DNA of 38,707 nt from Acidobacteriota bacterium (GTDB taxonomy: Bacteria; Acidobacteriota; Terriglobia; Terriglobales; Acidobacteriaceae), in assembly GCA_021813745.1 (NCBI GenBank), contig JAKAJO010000058.1, positions 1 to 38,707 of the forward strand, given 5' to 3'. Numbering within the stretch: the first letter of the stretch is position 1; the number at the start of each line of letters is the position of its first letter. The position numbers were made by a program, and so were the translations under genes. Shown piece by piece: positions 30,679 to 38,707 of the stretch. The notes below the pieces were generated by a model. That model saw nothing but the letters and a program-made list of their open reading frames with translations. It did not search any database and was not told the DNA's origin.

Positions 30679-30770
30679 TGGCGGAGAGGGAGGGATTCGA
30701 ACCCCCGATAGCCTTGCGACTATGCCTGATTTCGAGTCAGGTGCATTCAACCGGGCTCTGCCACCTCTCC
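30679..30770 (-). tRNA. tRNA-Ser(CGA)
   Basis: The minus strand folds as a class II tRNA. The acceptor stem is GGAGAGG / CCTCTCC, followed by discriminator G and an encoded CCA. The anticodon arm is CCTGA-CTCGAAA-TCAGG with anticodon CGA (reads UCG). A long variable arm (CATAGTCGCAAGGCTATC) is typical of tRNA-Ser. The T arm is GGGGG-TTCGAAT-CCCTC. Its 5' end lies about 100 bp from an integrase remnant. Confidence 0.97.
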
Positions 30771-30869
30771 GCTTTGTTTACAACGAGATACGCCCCGGTG
30801 GAAACGTATTGCCAGCACTGGTGTCAAATCGGACATCTTTCTGAGATGTGCTCGCGTCGAACGCAACTG

Positions 30870-31140
30870 CAACATTGTTGGCGATCTGGTTGGCACCTGG
30901 CATGAGATGAGCATATCGCATTGTCATCCGGATCGTCGAATGGCTGGCGTACTTGGCCACGGCGGCCAAAGACACGCCTCCCACCGCCCGCAGATCGTAT
31001 GGCGGTTGTCGTGGAAGTTGCACTCGCAGATGCCTGCCTCGGCCAGCATCGGTTTGAACCCATTGTCCACGTCGGTCAGGTGCGTCTTCTGGGATCGGAG
31101 ACGTCAGCTCCCATGCTCTCCGGCACACTAATCGTGCCTG
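30870..31140 (-). pseudogene. Tyrosine recombinase (phage integrase) C-terminal remnant, frameshifted
   Basis: Two reading frames of the minus strand together restore the end of an integrase. One frame reads LTDVDNGFKPMLAEAGI and FHDNRHT (30996-31016), matching the conserved H-x-x-R box (FHDLRHT). The next frame continues with GVSLAAVAKYASHSTIRMTM and RYAHL (about 30900-30970), matching the second catalytic His and the Tyr region. A frameshift near 30985 separates them, and no N-terminal half or start is found. It is therefore a dead remnant. Boundaries are approximate. It lies between tRNA-Ser and cas9, with a tRNA-end remnant on its other side. Confidence 0.75.
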
Positions 31141-31196
31141 GTTGGATGCTGTGGACACTACCGCCGAGCGTAAGGAGAACTAAGTTGTGGATTTGA

Positions 31197-31245
31197 TGGT
31201 GGACGCGGTAGGAATCGAATCTGCAACCTAACTTATTTTCAACAA
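31197..31245 (-). repeat. tRNA 3'-end remnant, possible att half-site
   Basis: The minus strand carries a T-arm-like GCAGA-TTCGATT-CCTAC followed by CGCGTCC, A and CCA, with an anticodon-loop-like TTGAAAA upstream. The T stem has two mismatches, and no matching 5' half (GGACGCG, D arm) exists. This is what a degraded att copy of a tRNA 3' end looks like after integration of a mobile element. Confidence 0.4.
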
Positions 31246-31383
31246 CATGCAGGTCAGCGGATGACACCTAAGACCACGAAAACCAGCCGTAATCGGATAA
31301 ACAGAGCGCAGATGGAGCGCGCAAATCCTGGATGGCCTCTGCAGTAGCATGAGTGACCTTTGAAGAAAACATACCCCGTTAGC

Positions 31384-31413
31384 AAATAAGAACGCCCCGT
31401 CTCCGGGGCGTTC
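31384..31413 (-). terminator. tracrRNA terminator
   Basis: A 10-bp perfect stem GAACGCCCCG (31390-31399) / CGGGGCGTTC (31404-31413) with a 4-nt loop. On the minus strand it is followed by TTATTTG. It ends the predicted tracrRNA. Confidence 0.85.
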
Positions 31414-31483
31414 ACCTGGGATTTACCCTTCGTCGGTGAAACTTACTAGGAATGGATCCAAGAATCACCGCTCAAGTACACTG
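31384..31483 (-). ncRNA. Predicted tracrRNA of the type II-C locus (minus strand)
   Basis: Read on the minus strand, positions 31482-31462 match the plus-strand start of the CRISPR repeat over 21 nt (AGTGTACTTGAGCGGTGATT...). The next bases down to 31445 still pair with the remaining repeat when G:U pairs and a 2-nt AU bulge are allowed. This gives a full-length anti-repeat against the minus-strand repeat. A nexus-like hairpin follows (TTCACC / GGTGAA with an inner GGG-TAAAT-CCC), then a Rho-independent terminator. Length is about 100 nt. It lies directly upstream of, and divergent from, cas9. The RNA guides crRNA maturation and loads Cas9. The exact 5' end is inferred. A plus-strand reading would also contain the 21-nt match but has neither extended pairing nor a terminator. 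Confidence 0.85.
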
Positions 31484-31490
31484 TTATACT
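31482..31490 (+). promoter_or_regulatory. Putative extended -10 of the cas9 promoter
   Basis: TGTTATACT reads as TG-N-TATACT, an extended -10 element, with a predicted start near 31497 and a leader of about 32 nt before the cas9 ATG. The -35 region (near 31462-31467) is poor and falls in the tracrRNA anti-repeat. The cas9 and tracrRNA promoters therefore overlap head to head. Confidence 0.45.
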
Positions 31491-31518
31491 TGTAACCCGT
31501 TGAAAATCTATATGTCAA
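31489..31518 (-). promoter_or_regulatory. Putative tracrRNA promoter
   Basis: On the minus strand a consensus TTGACA (31518-31513) is followed, after an 18-bp spacer, by TACAAG (31494-31489). This puts the transcript start at about 31482, right where the anti-repeat begins. A better -10 match, TATAAC (31488-31483), is too far from the -35. Confidence 0.5.
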
Positions 31519-31528
31519 GGTGCATTTA

Positions 31529-34500
31529 ATGTCTCCAACCTCGGACTCTTCACAAAAGTACATTCTTGGACTTGATCTTGGTTCAGCATCTATAGGTTGG
31601 GCAGTAATTCGTCTGAATGAGCAACTTGAGCCAGCTGAAGTTTTCGACGCCGGGGTTCGGATATTCGACCCGGGCGTTGAAGTTACAGCCAAGCTCCCAA
31701 CCGAGGAAGCCATCATTAGGGGAATCGATCGCTCCAAGGCTGTCGGACGCCGTCTGGCGCGCCTGGCGCGCCGGCAAGGCGACAGAAAGCGGACGCGTCA
31801 GAACTCGCTCTTCAAATTGCTTCAAGCCAATAACTGGCTGCCTACTTATGAAGAATATCGAGATGAGCCGCTCTTTGCCCAGAAGCACCTTACCTTCAAC
31901 AGACTCGACAAGGAGCTCGCTCACGCGTTCTCACGATCCAGACGCCGGCGTGGAGCAGACGCGGTCATGCTAGAAACAGACCAGGCATTGCCATACGTGT
32001 TGCGGAAAGAAGCCCTGGAACGAGAGCTGAAACCGTGCGAATTGGGCAAGATTATCTACCATCTCTCACAGCGTAGAGGATACCGTCCAAGCGCCGTGGA
32101 TGAAACCGACAGGGAGGGAATTGCTGAAGAAGAGGAAACTGCATCCTCCTCCAAGAAGGGCAAGAAGAAACGTGAGACCGAAGATGAGGGAGATGAGCAG
32201 AACACAGGCAAGGTCGAAAAAGGCATCAGCGATCTGAACACGAAGATGCAGGCAGCATACCAGACGGGAACGATCAAAGCGCCACTGATCGGCCCTTATT
32301 TCGGCACGTTCACAGCCCATAATCCCCATGACGAGCGCATCCGTCACCGCTGGACCGCGCGAGAGATGTTTGAAGATGAGTTCGATCTTATCTGGGCAAA
32401 GCAAGATGAGTTTTATCGCACTAGCCATCCGGGGTTGACACCGGAAGAGTTGGAGAAGAGAGAGAAGCTTCGGCAGGCGATTCGCAAGCTGCTCTTCTTT
32501 CAGCGGCCACTCGCCAGTACGGCCAACCTGATTGGATTCTGCGACCTCGAGCAGGAAGAGCGCCGTGCTCCCTGGGCATCGCTCGAAGCGCAGCAGTTCC
32601 GGCTGCTGCAGAAGGTTAACAACCTGCGCTATTTTGACCGTACCGACATGCTGGAAAAGCAGCTACCCGAGGAGAAAAGCGCAAAGTTGGTAAGAAAACT
32701 CCAGGAGGAAGGCGACCAGACATTTCCCGCGATCCGGAAGCTCCTCGACATGCCTGACGCGGAGTTCAACCTCCAGAAGAAGCGGAAGCCGGGTGATGAC
32801 CCTAAGAAAAAGCTCAACGAGGGGAAGATTGAGGGGAATCGCGTCAATGCTGTCATGCTGCGGGTCTTTGGGGTGGAACGGTGGGACTCATTCACTTGGG
32901 ACGAGAAAGTTGCGATCGTTGAAAGATGGCGCATCACCGAGGGCCTGAAGGAGCGTGAGCGCGTTGCCGCGGATCAATGGGGTCTTGATGAATTGCATGC
33001 GCAAATCTGGGCAGAGAATCGCCCTCCGGCCGACTACTGCAAACTCTCGCGCAAGGCGATTCTGAATCTGCTCGATCCGGCGAAGGGAGGGATGTGGAAC
33101 GGCGTTTCCTTCATGACTGCACGGCTGAAGGTGTACCCAAATCCGCTCGCCGGGAAGGAACCGCTTGATTATGTACCTGAGGTGACCGGCCCGAACGGGT
33201 TCATTCGCAGCCTTACTAATCCTGCCGTGATCCGCGCGCTGACGGAACTGCGCAAGGTTGTGAATGCAGTCATTCGCAAGCACAACAAGCCCTACGAGAT
33301 TCGGATTGAGCTAGCCCGTGAACTGAGGAAGAACCGTAGGCAGCGCAAGGATACGGAGGAGGCCAATGAAAAGAATCACGAGCGCCGGCTTGAGGCGGCG
33401 AGGAAGATTCTGAAAGAGTGCCAGAACTATGACGCCGAAGGGCTCGACGCAGAAGGGTTGGTACGCCAGAAACGTGACGACGTCACCAAGATGCTCCTGC
33501 TGATGGAGTGTCACTGCACCTGCCCCTATACGGGAGCTCCCATCAGTTACGCTCAGCTGTTTGGCGGCGAGGTCGAAATTGAACACATCATTCCACAGAG
33601 CATGATGCTGGACAACAGCTTCGACAACCTCACGCTGACATTCCGGAGCACAAATCACGAAAAGCTGGATCGAACGCCCTGGCAACATTTCGGCAATCAG
33701 AAGGATTGGGGAAATATCCTGCAACGCGTCGAGAAGTTCGGGAACAAACGCAAGCTGGCCCTCTTTCAATTGCGCACTCCTGAGGAGGCACGCAAGTTTG
33801 GCGCGCGGCGGCTCAATGACACCCGGTATACCAGCAAGCTTGCCGGTCGTCTGCTGATGACACTTTACGGCGGGCGGGATGTATTGCCGGACGCTGGTGT
33901 CGAAATTGATGAGCAAGATGAGTTCAAGGACAGCACGGGCCGGCGCGCCATCTTCGTCTCCTCCGGTATGGTGACAGCTCTGTTGCGCGATGCATGGATG
34001 TTGAACCTCCATGAACTGATCGGCAATGGCGCGACTAAAGCCGCTGAAACAGCCCAGGAGAAGCGGGAGAAGAACAAGCAGTCGAAGAAAAAGGACCGCA
34101 GCGACCATCGGCATCACGCACTCGATGCGGTTGTGATAGGGCTGACGACAGAGAGCTTGGTCCGGAAGATCAACACTCTCAGCGCAAGTTATTACGTCCA
34201 GCACCAGAATGACGGGTACACATCACTCGGCTACCGGGAGTTGCTGAAACTAGTCCGGCGCGAAGTGCGTCCTGCATGCCTGAACGGCGAGCGTCTGGAA
34301 AGATTGCGCGGCACCTTCAAGGACATCGTGACCTCGCATCGAGTCAATCACAGATTGCGCGGTGAGTTACACAAGGCGGGGTATTTCGGCAAGGAGCGCG
34401 GACGCACGCCGAAAAGCGACACACCAATTCGCCACAAGCGCGTCTCGATCCGGGATCTGAGCAAGATGGAGAAGCCGGAGGATATTGAAAGTACGATTGC

Positions 34501-35242
34501 GCACATTGTGGAAGGGAAAAACAAGGACGGATCGCCGAACACAACCATTCAACGAATCATTCGCGAATTCGGCGAAACGATTCGCGGCAAGAACAAGAAG
34601 GGCGAAGAGGTTCGCGGTTATCCGATGTGGAAGGAGGCAGAGCACGGATACCCAACCCTGCCCGGCAAACGCCTTGGTAAGCCTGTACCTATCAAGAAGT
34701 TCACCACCTGGTTCACGAAGAATACGACCTCTCTCGGGATGGATAAACGTTGGAAAGGGTATCCGGAGCGCAATGTGGAGACGGGCGAGATTGCCTATGT
34801 GAGCTTCTTCAACGTGCAGAACCGGCGAGGGACAAAATGGAGGTGGGATGTGGTCAAACTCTTTGATGCGGCGCAGAGCATCCAGTCGATACCGAAACGC
34901 GAACGCGCCCGCACAAACATCTTCGCGCTGCCGTCGGAGGAGTTCAAGAAGAGCCTCAGGGACGATGATGAAGTCACCTACCGGTTCTCCCTGATGAAGG
35001 GGGATATGGTTGAGATGGAGAACAGAAAGATTGTAATCGTGCGGCGCTTCGAAAGCGATGGCCGAATTTGGATCTCTGCGGTGAACGCTGCTGGCACAGA
35101 TAAGATGCTGAAAGAAACGAACTCACTACATCGCATCGGCCTCTCAGATTTCCTCAAGAAAAGGCCGAAAGATTCAGACAGCCCACAGCCGATTCGGATC
35201 GACCCGATTGGAAATAAAAGCCGCGTCGAACTTGGCGCCTGA
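31529..35242 (+). CDS. cas9: Type II-C CRISPR-associated endonuclease Cas9
   Basis: A 1237-aa RNA-guided DNA endonuclease. RuvC-I is YILGLDLGSASIGWAVI with Asp16. An Arg-rich bridge helix follows (about 68-95, GRRLARLARRQGDRKRTRQN), then a long recognition lobe. RuvC-II is IRIELARELRKNRR with Glu594. The HNH domain has EIEHIIPQS with His686 and SFDNLTL with Asn700, 14 residues later as in other Cas9s. RuvC-III is HRHHALDAVV with His863 and Asp866. All catalytic residues are present, so it should be active. A Cys-rich CHCTCPYTG precedes HNH. A charged insert (about 192-236, Glu/Lys/Ser runs) lies in the recognition lobe, and the protein is larger than most II-C Cas9s (around 1000-1150). ATG 31529 follows AAGG; a GTG 9 bp upstream is possible. 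cas1 starts 11 bp after the stop. Confidence 0.97.
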   Translation: MSPTSDSSQKYILGLDLGSASIGWAVIRLNEQLEPAEVFDAGVRIFDPGVEVTAKLPTEEAIIRGIDRSKAVGRRLARLARRQGDRKRTRQNSLFKLLQANNWLPTYEEYRDEPLFAQKHLTFNRLDKELAHAFSRSRRRRGADAVMLETDQALPYVLRKEALERELKPCELGKIIYHLSQRRGYRPSAVDETDREGIAEEEETASSSKKGKKKRETEDEGDEQNTGKVEKGISDLNTKMQAAYQTGTIKAPLIGPYFGTFTAHNPHDERIRHRWTAREMFEDEFDLIWAKQDEFYRTSHPGLTPEELEKREKLRQAIRKLLFFQRPLASTANLIGFCDLEQEERRAPWASLEAQQFRLLQKVNNLRYFDRTDMLEKQLPEEKSAKLVRKLQEEGDQTFPAIRKLLDMPDAEFNLQKKRKPGDDPKKKLNEGKIEGNRVNAVMLRVFGVERWDSFTWDEKVAIVERWRITEGLKERERVAADQWGLDELHAQIWAENRPPADYCKLSRKAILNLLDPAKGGMWNGVSFMTARLKVYPNPLAGKEPLDYVPEVTGPNGFIRSLTNPAVIRALTELRKVVNAVIRKHNKPYEIRIELARELRKNRRQRKDTEEANEKNHERRLEAARKILKECQNYDAEGLDAEGLVRQKRDDVTKMLLLMECHCTCPYTGAPISYAQLFGGEVEIEHIIPQSMMLDNSFDNLTLTFRSTNHEKLDRTPWQHFGNQKDWGNILQRVEKFGNKRKLALFQLRTPEEARKFGARRLNDTRYTSKLAGRLLMTLYGGRDVLPDAGVEIDEQDEFKDSTGRRAIFVSSGMVTALLRDAWMLNLHELIGNGATKAAETAQEKREKNKQSKKKDRSDHRHHALDAVVIGLTTESLVRKINTLSASYYVQHQNDGYTSLGYRELLKLVRREVRPACLNGERLERLRGTFKDIVTSHRVNHRLRGELHKAGYFGKERGRTPKSDTPIRHKRVSIRDLSKMEKPEDIESTIAHIVEGKNKDGSPNTTIQRIIREFGETIRGKNKKGEEVRGYPMWKEAEHGYPTLPGKRLGKPVPIKKFTTWFTKNTTSLGMDKRWKGYPERNVETGEIAYVSFFNVQNRRGTKWRWDVVKLFDAAQSIQSIPKRERARTNIFALPSEEFKKSLRDDDEVTYRFSLMKGDMVEMENRKIVIVRRFESDGRIWISAVNAAGTDKMLKETNSLHRIGLSDFLKKRPKDSDSPQPIRIDPIGNKSRVELGA

Positions 35243-35252
35243 GGGAATTGCG

Positions 35253-36239
35253 ATGATTGACCGCATCGTTGAAATCTCGAATCCTGCACGGTTAAGCGTG
35301 CGCGACTCTCAGTTGGTGATTGAACTTGCGCCCGAGGAGCAGCTTTCGCTCCCCTTTACGATTCCTGTCAACGATATTGCCGCTCTGCTGCTTGCGCATC
35401 CGCAGATCACTCTGTCGCAGGCTGTGCTCTCGCGCATTGCCGAAGCTGGTGGGTCGGTCATCACCATAGATGGCAAGTTTCTGCCTGCATCGATGCTGCT
35501 TCCAGTGCAGAGCCACTTCATCCAGACGGAGCGATTCGCCCGCCAGATGGGGATTTCCCTGCCCACACGCAAGCGGCTCTGGCAACAGATCGTCCGCGTC
35601 AAGATAAAGGCCCAGGGCGAGCTTCTGCGCGAACTCCACGGCAGCGATGAAGGATTGATCGCTCTCTCGGCGCGGGTCCGCTCCGGCGATGTCGGCAACC
35701 TGGAGGCCCAGGCCGCGCGCCGTTATTGGAAGCACCTGTTTCCTGGTGGCAGGTTCCGGCGTGGTTCCGATGAGAATGATCAGAACCGGCACTTGGATTA
35801 CGGCTATACCGTCCTGCGCGCAGCTGTAGCGAGGGCTCTGTGCGCTGCCGGCTTGCATCCCTCTATTGCCCTCAAGCACAGCAACCGTTACGATCCATTC
35901 TGCCTGGCTGCGGATGTAATGGAGCCATTCCGCCCGCTAATTGACCGGCGCGTGGCACAGTGGATTGCTCGCGAAGACGCAGCGGCCCCACTCGACTCGC
36001 GCACAAAGAACTGGCTCATCGGCGCAGTGACTGCTCGGTACATCTTCGAGGGCGAAGAGCGCACTCTCTTCGACATTCTGCTGCGGGTTACGAATTCGCT
36101 AGCTAAGTGCGTTACAGGAGAACAGAGAGACCCGGTATTACCGAACCTGCTGGAAGCAATCTTGGTTGAGCCAGCGCCGAAGCGCGGCGTGAAGCGCGCG
36201 GAGGTCGAAGGTATTTGGGCTTTGAAAGCTAACGGATGA
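35253..36239 (+). CDS. cas1: CRISPR integrase Cas1 (type II)
   Basis: A 328-aa spacer-acquisition integrase, acting with Cas2. The N-terminal beta domain reads RIVEISNPARLSVRDSQLVI. The catalytic helical domain has the expected Glu in VGNLEAQAARRYWKHLF, His in GLHPSIALKHSNRYDPF and Asp in LAADVMEPFRPLIDRRV, so the metal site looks intact. ATG 35253 is chosen because GAGGGA lies just upstream, between the cas9 stop and the ATG. The frame is open into cas9, but that part is not Cas1-like. It is co-transcribed with cas9 and cas2. Confidence 0.96.
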   Translation: MIDRIVEISNPARLSVRDSQLVIELAPEEQLSLPFTIPVNDIAALLLAHPQITLSQAVLSRIAEAGGSVITIDGKFLPASMLLPVQSHFIQTERFARQMGISLPTRKRLWQQIVRVKIKAQGELLRELHGSDEGLIALSARVRSGDVGNLEAQAARRYWKHLFPGGRFRRGSDENDQNRHLDYGYTVLRAAVARALCAAGLHPSIALKHSNRYDPFCLAADVMEPFRPLIDRRVAQWIAREDAAAPLDSRTKNWLIGAVTARYIFEGEERTLFDILLRVTNSLAKCVTGEQRDPVLPNLLEAILVEPAPKRGVKRAEVEGIWALKANG

Positions 36240-36251
36240 ACTGGGAATGCC

Positions 36252-36590
36252 ATGAAAGCGAGGCCGCTATCCGCGTATCGATCCTTGTGGCTGATTGCCA
36301 TGTTCGATCTCCCCGTAGAAACGCCGGTCAACCGGCGCGATTACACGCGCTTTCGCAAGGCTCTGATCAAAGACGGCTTCATGATGCTGCAGTTCTCTGT
36401 CTATGCGCGGTTTCTTCCCAGTGAGGAGGCGGCCGCGGCACACCGCAGCACGATCCGTGGAGTCATTCCACCGCTGGGGCAAGTGCGGTTGATCACTGTG
36501 ACGGACCTGCAATTTGGGAAGATGGAGGTTTTCTATGGCAGAAAGCCGAAGCCACCGGAAGAGATTCCGGAGCAGATACTTCTTTTCTAA
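36252..36590 (+). CDS. cas2: CRISPR-associated Cas2 (type II)
   Basis: A 112-aa ferredoxin-fold protein that bridges Cas1 dimers in the integration complex. The first strand LWLIAMFDLPVETPVNRRDY contains the conserved Asp19. GFMMLQFSVYARFLPSEEAA and VRLITVTDLQFGKMEVFYG follow in family order. It starts 12 bp after the cas1 stop. No csn2 or cas4 follows, which fits subtype II-C. The array begins 50 bp after the stop, beyond a long hairpin. Confidence 0.95.
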   Translation: MKARPLSAYRSLWLIAMFDLPVETPVNRRDYTRFRKALIKDGFMMLQFSVYARFLPSEEAAAAHRSTIRGVIPPLGQVRLITVTDLQFGKMEVFYGRKPKPPEEIPEQILLF

Positions 36591-36597
36591 AAGTGCG

Positions 36598-36638
36598 AAC
36601 CCCGCCAACCTGCTTGAAATGAGCAGGTTGGCGGGGTT
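36598..36638 (-). terminator. Perfect 17-bp hairpin between cas2 and the array
   Basis: AACCCCGCCAACCTGCT (36598-36614) and AGCAGGTTGGCGGGGTT (36622-36638) form a perfect 17-bp stem with a 7-nt loop. On the minus strand it is followed at short distance by TTTT (CGCACTTTTAG); on the plus strand no T run follows and the first repeat starts at 36641. It is best read as the terminator of an array transcribed on the minus strand, and it may also stop cas mRNA from entering the array. Confidence 0.7.
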
Positions 36639-36640
36639 CT

Positions 36641-38707
36641 AGTGTACTTGAGCGGTGATTCCCGGCCATCCCCAGCGGCCATCGGCTCTGGGTTGATGCT
36701 TTGGACAGTGTACTTGAGCGGTGATTCCCGGCCATCCCCAGCAGAAACGGCTGCACCAAGCCGTAGTGATTTAGTGTACTTGAGCGGTGATTCCCGGCCA
36801 TCCCCAGCCACGCGCATGATGAGGTCCTGATCCAAAAGTGTACTTGAGCGGTGATTCCCGGCCATCCCCAGCGCTGTACAGCCTGTGACGCGGCCACAGC
36901 CAGTGTACTTGAGCGGTGATTCCCGGCCATCCCCAGCATGCCATTCAAAGGATTGACCTTGTAGATTAGTGTACTTGAGCGGTGATTCCCGGCCATCCCC
37001 AGCGGTCTACCGCCGAGAGCCGCGGACTGGCGCAGTGTACTTGAGCGGTGATTCCCGGCCATCCCCAGCATCTTGAGTGATGGCAAGTTCCGGCTCACAG
37101 TGTACTTGAGCGGTGATTCCCGGCCATCCCCAGCGGCCATGAGAATTGTAGCCGCATCTCCAATAGTGTACTTGAGCGGTGATTCCCGGCCATCCCCAGC
37201 TCGGAGCACCATAGTCGGCGCAGTTCAGGAAGTGTACTTGAGCGGTGATTCCCGGCCATCCCCAGCGGGTTGGAGCACCCGCCGTCGACGGCAGTGAGTG
37301 TACTTGAGCGGTGATTCCCGGCCATCCCCAGCATCGGTGAATGTAATCCCGTTCTGTGCCGCAGTGTACTTGAGCGGTGATTCCCGGCCATCCCCAGCGG
37401 AAACTGTTGACGCCTTATATCGCAAGTGAGTGTACTTGAGCGGTGATTCCCGGCCATCCCCAGCGGCAGAGGAAATGGTCAGCAAAGGCAAATCAGTGTA
37501 CTTGAGCGGTGATTCCCGGCCATCCCCAGCGCAGAGCGTAATACGCACATGCTGCTGGCTAGTGTACTTGAGCGGTGATTCCCGGCCATCCCCAGCGCAG
37601 TGAACGATTTGGTCAAGGTGCCTTTAAGTGTACTTGAGCGGTGATTCCCGGCCATCCCCAGCGGGCCGTGGAGTACAACTTCCTCAGTCTCAAGTGTACT
37701 TGAGCGGTGATTCCCGGCCATCCCCAGCCAGCCAGGTGCGCGACGTGTGGCAGACGCAAGTGTACTTGAGCGGTGATTCCCGGCCATCCCCAGCAGACCG
37801 TGGAGTACAAATTCCTCAGTCTCAAGTGTACTTGAGCGGTGATTCCCGGCCATCCCCAGCCCGCCAGTGCCTCCAGCCAGATACACGAAAGTGTACTTGA
37901 GCGGTGATTCCCGGCCATCCCCAGCTCAGTTGGCGTCTGCCATGCTGAAGAAGTAAGTGTACTTGAGCGGTGATTCCCGGCCATCCCCAGCTTCCGGCAT
38001 GGTGTAGGCCGTCCAGTCCTCAGTGTACTTGAGCGGTGATTCCCGGCCATCCCCAGCAACCCAGCGTCCGCTCCATACTGAGCTTTTAGTGTACTTGAGC
38101 GGTGATTCCCGGCCATCCCCAGCTCATCTCAAATCACCCCTGCTAGATTTGCGAGTGTACTTGAGCGGTGATTCCCGGCCATCCCCAGCTGCTTGCCGAG
38201 TATAATGCGCATCACGAAAGTGTACTTGAGCGGTGATTCCCGGCCATCCCCAGCTTGCGTGTGTCAGACAAGAACTGAGAGATCAGTGTACTTGAGCGGT
38301 GATTCCCGGCCATCCCCAGCTCAGCGATTGCGTACACGCCGAAAGGTTCAAGTGTACTTGAGCGGTGATTCCCGGCCATCCCCAGCATCGCGTGAGCGCG
38401 AGGCAGCGATACCATCAGTGTACTTGAGCGGTGATTCCCGGCCATCCCCAGCCGCAGCCGAAGATTTCGGCAACTTGGGAGAAGTGTACTTGAGCGGTGA
38501 TTCCCGGCCATCCCCAGCCGCAGCCGAAGATTTCGGCAACTTGGGAGAGTGTACTTGAGCGGTGATTCCCGGCCATCCCCAGCTCTGCATGGGTGGGAGC
38601 CATCCCCTTCGGAAGTGTACTTGAGCGGTGATTCCCGGCCATCCCCAGCGGGTTCGGGAAACTGCGCGTATTGCTGTGAGTGTACTTGAGGGGGGATTCC
38701 CGGCCAT
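36641..38707 (-). CRISPR. CRISPR array, at least 32 repeats of 36 bp, continuing past the window
   Basis: Thirty-two repeat starts are visible, at about 66-bp intervals from 36641 to 38679, giving 31 spacers of 28-30 bp. The repeat on the plus strand opens AGTGTACTTGAGCGGTGATT and closes CCCGGCCATCCCCAGC, and it is nearly invariant. Read as crRNA on the minus strand it begins GCTGGGGATGG and ends AAGTACACT. The last repeat (from 38679) is cut by the window and carries two substitutions (GAGGGGGGATT). The two spacers at 38453 and 38519 are duplicates, and those at 37663 and 37795 are near-identical. The minus-strand orientation is inferred from full-length tracrRNA pairing; the leader would then lie right of the window. 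Confidence 0.98.

Follow-up and report, generated by a model that had tools for sequence, protein, structure and literature searches.

We have found a type II-C CRISPR-Cas9 system that, with a probability of about 70%, occupies the cargo slot of an integrative element inserted at tRNA-Lys and would defend its host; in relatives of the element this slot holds genes of the cyclic-oligonucleotide-based antiphage signalling system (CBASS) type or TIR genes. The system lies in a contig of 38,707 nt from an Acidobacteriota bacterium of the family Acidobacteriaceae (JAKAJO010000058.1 in assembly GCA_021813745.1). This stretch, the window below, is the whole of contig G000:C15 from a genome bin of 136 contigs; other contigs of the same bin are designated C17, C30 and C114, and other genomes carry G numbers. 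On balance we favour the view that compact cassettes (∼7–11 kb) at tRNA-Lys swap whole immune systems, and that those with Cas9 as cargo swap the Cas9 tail that reads the protospacer adjacent motif (PAM) and keep the guide RNA. With slightly better than even odds, the family is built of conserved ends, a recombinase pair and one slot for CRISPR-Cas9, CBASS or TIR genes. If this is true, whole immunised CRISPR-Cas9 systems pass between acidobacteria as single cassettes, which use one integration site in common with other defences.

Ends of a probable element at tRNA-Lys and the cargo between them

The same bin contains a second, near-identical system on contig C17 (37,693 nt), and this copy is bracketed by ends. 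One core made of the 3′ end of tRNA-Lys lies 5′ of its trans-activating CRISPR RNA (tracrRNA) and another lies past two recombinase genes, 10.8 kb away. The recombinases, of 579 and 390 aa (int579 and int390), match Pfam Phage_integrase. The open reading frames (ORFs) of at least 150 aa between the ends are the cas genes, the two recombinases, one unknown gene and frames in the array or antisense; no conjugation gene was met among them. In the window the CRISPR locus is set ∼60 bases inward from the left end (LE) of the presumed element (Table 1). A pattern search allowing two mismatches located the tRNA-Lys 3′ end at six places in the bin, with a single intact tRNA-Lys, on C114.

Direct repeats of the tRNA-Lys 3′ end at both ends, with a recombinase gene inside them, were found in C17 and in the related genome G002; the window contig holds the left copy only and stops before the position of the recombinase. 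The G002 genome, a single contig in which no Cas9 match was found, has the recombinase pair adjoining the tRNA-Lys core and, 7.1 kb from the core, a sequence 88% identical to window positions 31197–31320. The cargo between these ends includes genes for a CBASS cyclase (385 bits) and for a 2TM/Cap15 effector (220 bits). Relatives of the 579-aa recombinase were present in 15 of 300 family genomes and relatives of a 374-aa recombinase in six of 80 genus genomes (own genome included in both counts). Of the 14 other genomes with relatives of the 579-aa protein, 10 had their loci examined, and an LE match was present in three of the 10: G002 (88%), G088 (72%, E 2.6e-5) and G073 (72%, E 4.2e-5). The cargo is a ThsB-like TIR gene (373 bits) with a NERD/SEC-C protein in G088, and TIR with AIPR in G073. 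Two more loci carry restriction-modification systems, type I in G091 and type IIG in G079, and no LE was found in either. Because shared ends flank CBASS or TIR genes, and because the C17 copy is itself bracketed by ends, CRISPR-Cas9 appears to be cargo that a small integrative element can exchange.

The presumed target site was also seen without the element. In G034 an intact tRNA-Lys lies ∼0.5 kb from a homologue of the C30 left flank and ∼1.2 kb from a homologue of the C114 right flank; in G033 two contigs share this site between them, one ending and the other beginning at the core. Contig C30 itself has two tRNA-Lys cores that enclose 11.8 kb (57745–69515, L026) with genes resembling type III restriction-modification (MTase_III, 540 bits, and ResIII) and its own 398-aa integrase.

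Pairs of GAGCGCA-type motifs 11 nt apart, predicted to be arm-type recombinase sites, occur at both ends of C17 and G002 and at the window LE. On a scale with a maximum of 21 the C17 pair scored 21 and the G002 pair 20, and the window LE scored 20 with the right end of C17 and 19 with that of G002; among 300 shuffled versions of the C17 motif pair the highest score was 16. The ends of G073 and G088 have GATTGCA-type motifs, recognized by eye, with uneven spacing.

Several observations weigh against the element, and some of them would suit another explanation that we consider unlikely, namely that the window holds a resident chromosomal II-C locus, with the tRNA-Lys fragment and the LE likeness being relics of an unrelated older insertion alongside. 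The left flank of the window is chromosomal (hydrogenase, NifJ-like and FeoB-like genes, recognized by eye from ORFs), and the right end is absent from the contig. On the left side recombinase remnants lie beside tRNA-Ser, and for this reason the window copy may now be immobile. Genes similar to int579, or to its C114 counterpart int584, were absent from 20 other stretches of the same class, most of them with a cas9 40–46% identical; a weak match of the int398 type was met in two of these stretches (L015 and L090). The element ends and the cargo have no single shared history, since int579 and int584 are 44% identical, with int390 and its C114 counterpart int374 at 82% and the CRISPR parts at ∼95%. 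The motif score alone does not distinguish elements: some unlike pairs also beat all shuffles (17 for the window LE with C114 and 19 for the G073 LE with C17), and for G073 and G088 the like pairs reach just 16 and 15. Cargo was scanned in five of the 10 relatives' loci, picked by eye for defence-like ORFs. A resident locus is nevertheless hard to reconcile with the C17 copy, flanked by an LE and by a right end with two recombinases, or with G002, where the same LE stands before different cargo, and the integrative element remains our preferred reading.

The CRISPR repeat was found on three contigs of the bin only (the window, C17 and C114), and C114 is a candidate for the missing right end. 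C114 has the window's version of the repeat, in an array of 11 spacers with a degenerate far-end repeat, and a join of C114 to the window at first appeared likely from this shared version. It was then weakened by two facts that also count against the element: the right-end motif of C114 reads differently, and the G034 homologues of the window's left-flank genes sit beyond the other side of tRNA-Lys. Separately, a sequence of ∼105 bp on C114 (G000:C114:12143-12250, L027) recurs at 96–100% identity on six or more further contigs of the bin, three times close to the start of a contig.

A further point on the same side is that no protospacer of the window or C17 arrays was found in the phage records, plasmids, viral contigs or family genomes searched, and for that reason we claim no PAM. 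The window array gave zero matches to phage records and a single weak match of 42 nt to plasmids (E 0.6); the C17 array matched two records of one phage only (36 nt at 86%, E 0.3). Seven exact spacer patterns, from eight of the 57 known spacers, had 0 matches each in viral contigs. Used as a DNA query against 200 family genomes, with two candidates scored per genome, the window array returned related arrays and many short weak matches, of which the short ones were not inspected individually.

The second copy and the tail of Cas9

The C17 system has 94.6% nucleotide identity to the window over positions 31388–35064, with an identical tracrRNA (31388–31483). Its array has 17 repeats, the last one degenerate, and the repeat is a one-base variant of the window repeat that keeps the pairing with tracrRNA. 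In a comparison with the 30 complete spacers of the window and the 11 of C114, none of its 16 spacers agreed with another at 20 or more positions.

The two Cas9 proteins are 94.8% identical over 1162 residues and 37% identical over the last 75, and the mismatch profile puts a sharp onset of divergence at this tail. The C17 tail is 66% and 47% identical, in its two parts, to the tail of the full-length relative P0006 (48% and 35% for P0001), yet the tree of the Cas9 body excludes P0006. Given the contrast in identity and the conflict between the trees of body and tail, the PAM-reading tail was probably swapped. A structure search with the model of the window Cas9 C terminus returned a fold like that of the WED and PAM-interacting (PI) domains; the model of the C17 tail has a pLDDT of 81.2, low in loop 284–304. 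An improbable alternative is that the tail diverged by fast point evolution in the C17 lineage, with no recombination and perhaps with an unaltered PAM. The first 450 nt of cas1 are also more diverged between the copies (8–17%), the alignment of the tails covers just 77 columns and the likeness of the C17 tail to P0006 is limited, all of which would fit point evolution; the sharpness of the onset and the closeness to P0006 in the tail only speak for recombination. On the swap reading the copies make up a natural matched Cas9 pair with a common guide RNA and different PI tails, so that PAM change by tail recombination is directly testable.

At the C17 left end 121 bp match exactly the end of a contig (117 kb) from the bin of another species (G033), and for this reason C17 probably comes from the neighbouring G033 population; this left end likewise equals the left flank on C30. 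A tetranucleotide comparison left the species membership of C17 undecided. Contig C30 (L026) and G033:C57 (L224) share 4767 bp at 99.98%, against 72–75% at other loci shared by the two species, a near-identity likely due to misbinning; the bins may mix species. These data bear on the idea, in our view rather doubtful, that both copies belong to one genome in which two Cas9s that differ in PAM draw on one shared pool of guides, as a counter to PAM escape or anti-CRISPRs. The binning of C17 with the window, the identical tracrRNAs with their nearly identical and still pairing repeats, and the absence of the repeat from all further contigs of the bin except C114 agree with it, but the 121-bp identity with the G033 contig and the 4.8 kb shared by C30 with that contig point to separate populations. 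The flank past the C17 right attachment site (G000:C17:20706-26518, L013) shares 5.8 kb with G034:C232 at 90% identity and may therefore be mobile as well.

Genes, array and tracrRNA of the window locus

The order of the locus is tracrRNA on the minus strand, cas9, cas1, cas2, a hairpin and the array. This order, and an intact-looking type II-C locus, had been proposed by a model from the letters and ORFs alone (the sequence-only reading), and both are borne out by family-model matches and by the sequence. The same reading called the locus complete, which fails, as the contig end falls within the array and truncates it. The assignment to type II-C follows from a Cas9 with RuvC and HNH, cas1 with cas2, and a tracrRNA. 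The operon contains no csn2 or cas4, and the passage from cas2 to hairpin and array leaves no space for a further gene; an ORF beyond the C17 array had no Pfam match. With a GTG start the cas9 ORF would span 31520–35242; we took ATG 31529 as the start because the second copy has an in-frame TGA directly 5′ of the conserved ATG. The active-site residues claimed earlier to be intact are all in place (RuvC D16, E594, H860 and D866; HNH H686), and the window Cas9 would be expected to make RNA-guided, PAM-dependent cuts.

The array has 31 complete and identical repeats of 36 nt, starting at 36641, and spacers of 28–30 nt (30 complete); the 32nd repeat is altered and cut by the contig end. An array long and nearly invariant had been noted before, and 31 identical repeats exclude chance as its origin. 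Two near-identical spacers (27/30) and one duplicated spacer (37663–37824 and 38453–38548) suggest that related targets were sampled repeatedly or that part of the array was duplicated. A locus in another genome (G070:C53:46-1198, L089) has an array repeat identical to that of the window (36/36), with no Cas9 match within the 12 kb examined.

The tracrRNA pairs with 36 of 36 repeat bases, with a 2-nt bulge on the tracrRNA side, in a duplex of −62.6 kcal/mol; 200 shuffled repeats gave a mean of −18.2 and a best value of −35.4 kcal/mol. Its fold has z = −3.4. In an alignment of 16 tracrRNAs, selected from 25 extracted stretches, the consensus has 31 pairs with 449 of 485 cells paired and seven pairs changed on both sides. 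The anti-repeat and terminator named in the sequence-only reading are thus present, but its nexus is a mere 3-bp hairpin at a place where relatives have a longer stem: several middle consensus pairs are broken in the window and C17 copies, so that the nexus is weak in both, and the terminator is kept. A scan revealed no strong tracrRNA promoter (TTGACA at 31513–31518 on the minus strand has no good −10 partner), and Rfam at the gathering threshold detected no RNA family except tRNA in the window.

An anti-repeat upstream of cas9 on the opposite strand occurs in 15 of 16 Cas9 loci of the same class, which makes the divergent layout the rule there. GCTGGGG starts the CRISPR RNA (crRNA) repeat in six of 13 same-class arrays (18 loci examined), L089 being one of the six, and in five of 53 arrays from named genomes (80 loci examined), with two named-genome contigs being the same records as same-class loci; a handle described earlier as uncommon is no rarity. 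The Acidothermus Cas9 (AceCas9) handle, presumably, begins similarly. This likeness does not appear to reach the protein, and phmmer scores do not support kinship with AceCas9, the window Cas9 giving 160 bits with NmeCas9 and 54 bits with AceCas9. The main text of the AceCas9 paper does not contain the string GCUGGGG or GCTGGGG.

Relatives of the window Cas9 (E ≤ 1e-30) were present in 16 of 300 sampled family genomes (own included), and none was confirmed among viral contigs. The protein had been called unusually long, which is true against 90 relatives measured at their loci (with a median of 1059 aa and a maximum of 1219), over which the extra length consists of many small insertions, but not against the nearest full-length proteins, which reach 1238–1254 aa: P0002 and P0003 (92%, 1238 aa), P0004, P0006 (70%, 1252 aa), P0007 (63%, 1243 aa, named Acidobacteriaceae) and the Cas9 of C17 (1254 aa). 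In the tree the window Cas9 falls within a fully supported clade of same-class loci and these nearest full-length proteins. The suggestion of an uncharacterised branch therefore stands as to the clade, which has no characterised member among the rows, in a tree that holds no laboratory-studied Cas9, AceCas9 included. By its layout and its handle the locus is an ordinary member of this clade.

Between tRNA-Ser and the LE (30679–31196) remnants resembling two recombinases were seen; the second, on the minus strand, was recognized by eye and has no Pfam match.

Table 1. Features of the window (positions in the 38,707-nt stretch)
Feature	Position	Strand	Evidence
tRNA-Ser(CGA)	30679-30770	-	tRNA scan
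29-aa remnant of int390/int374-like tyrosine recombinase, probable end of older neighbouring element	31073..31159	+	tblastn 66%, E 3e-9
Right-end-like sequence CTAAGTTGTGGATTTGA of older element	31180..31196	+	resembles sequence beside att core in C17, C114 and C30
Left end (LE) of predicted integrative element	31197..31321	.	88% over 124 nt to G002 LE; aligned with C17 LE
Decayed attachment (att) core, 3′ end of tRNA-Lys(CTT)	31197..31229	-	own-genome pattern search, ≤2 mismatches
Motif pair GAGCGCA/GAGCGCG with 11-nt spacing, putative recombinase sites of the arm type	31304..31321	+	pairs at C17 and G002 ends
tracrRNA (anti-repeat 31445-31482, terminator stem-loop 31390-31413)	31384..31485	-	repeat pairing, terminator scan, second-copy identity
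cas9, type II-C, 1237 aa	31529..35242	+	TIGR01865 549 bits (cut-off 100); HNH_4, RuvC_III
Cas9 PI tail (aa 1163-1237), unlike that of the second copy	35015..35239	+	identities, mismatch profile, conflicting trees, fold
cas1, 328 aa	35253..36239	+	TIGR03639 (cas1_NMENI) 248 bits (cut-off 120)
cas2, 112 aa	36252..36590	+	TIGR01573 59 bits (cut-off 24.5); PADLOC Cas2_II 134 bits
Inverted repeat, predicted terminator of minus-strand array transcript	36594..36639	.	sequence reading
CRISPR array, 31 full repeats and a cut one	36641..38707	crRNA strand -	repeat/spacer reading of sequence

Proposed mechanism and comparison with known systems

In the mechanism that we propose, the recombinase pair at the right end (in C17, C114 and G002) would bind the paired arm motifs at both ends and integrate the element into tRNA-Lys at its 3′ end, bringing in one immune system. 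Minus-strand transcripts of the array would pair with tracrRNA and be trimmed by RNase III, and Cas9 would cut invader DNA where a match to a spacer adjoins a PAM. New spacers would be added by Cas1, Cas2 and Cas9 next to cas2, as is suggested by the degenerate repeat at the opposite end of the C17 and C114 arrays. Recombination of the PI tail would change the PAM and leave guides interchangeable between copies. Insertion, processing, cutting and acquisition are proposed here from knowledge of the families, and we infer the mobility of the element, the activity of the system and its PAMs from sequence.

The system resembles the type II-C systems of NmeCas9, GeoCas9 and AceCas9 in the cas9-cas1-cas2 order, the tracrRNA, 36-nt repeats and ∼30-nt spacers, the RuvC and HNH residues and a WED/PI-like C-terminal fold. 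It differs from them in a Cas9 of 1237–1254 aa with several small insertions, in an anti-repeat that pairs with the whole repeat and in a weak nexus. In Tn7-like CRISPR-associated transposons, too, CRISPR components travel as mobile cargo; here the recombinases are of the tyrosine type, the attachment site is a tRNA and the CRISPR is of the nuclease type used in defence. No Tns genes were noticed in the parts scanned. Nme1Cas9 and Nme2Cas9, as far as the available part of PMC9433092 goes, are likewise close II-C Cas9s with exchangeable guides and differing PI domains, whereas here the two copies are metagenomic and the change is limited to about the last 75 residues.

Among the matches listed from open-licence papers, judged mostly by title, no title concerned such elements in Acidobacteria; one of the papers, in its available part, deals with mobile and duplicated genes in an acidobacterium, Candidatus Solibacter (PMC3174227). 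The nearest known case among these matches is CampyICE1, described in the available part of PMC8743540 as an element of 70–129 kb with conjugation genes and Cas9 as its sole Cas protein. Both cases have a type II-C cas9 on a tRNA-inserted element, in CampyICE1 with a XerC-type recombinase and an integrase. In contrast to CampyICE1, the C17 element, with no conjugation genes among its ORFs of at least 150 aa, has a length of 10.8 kb and includes cas1 and cas2.
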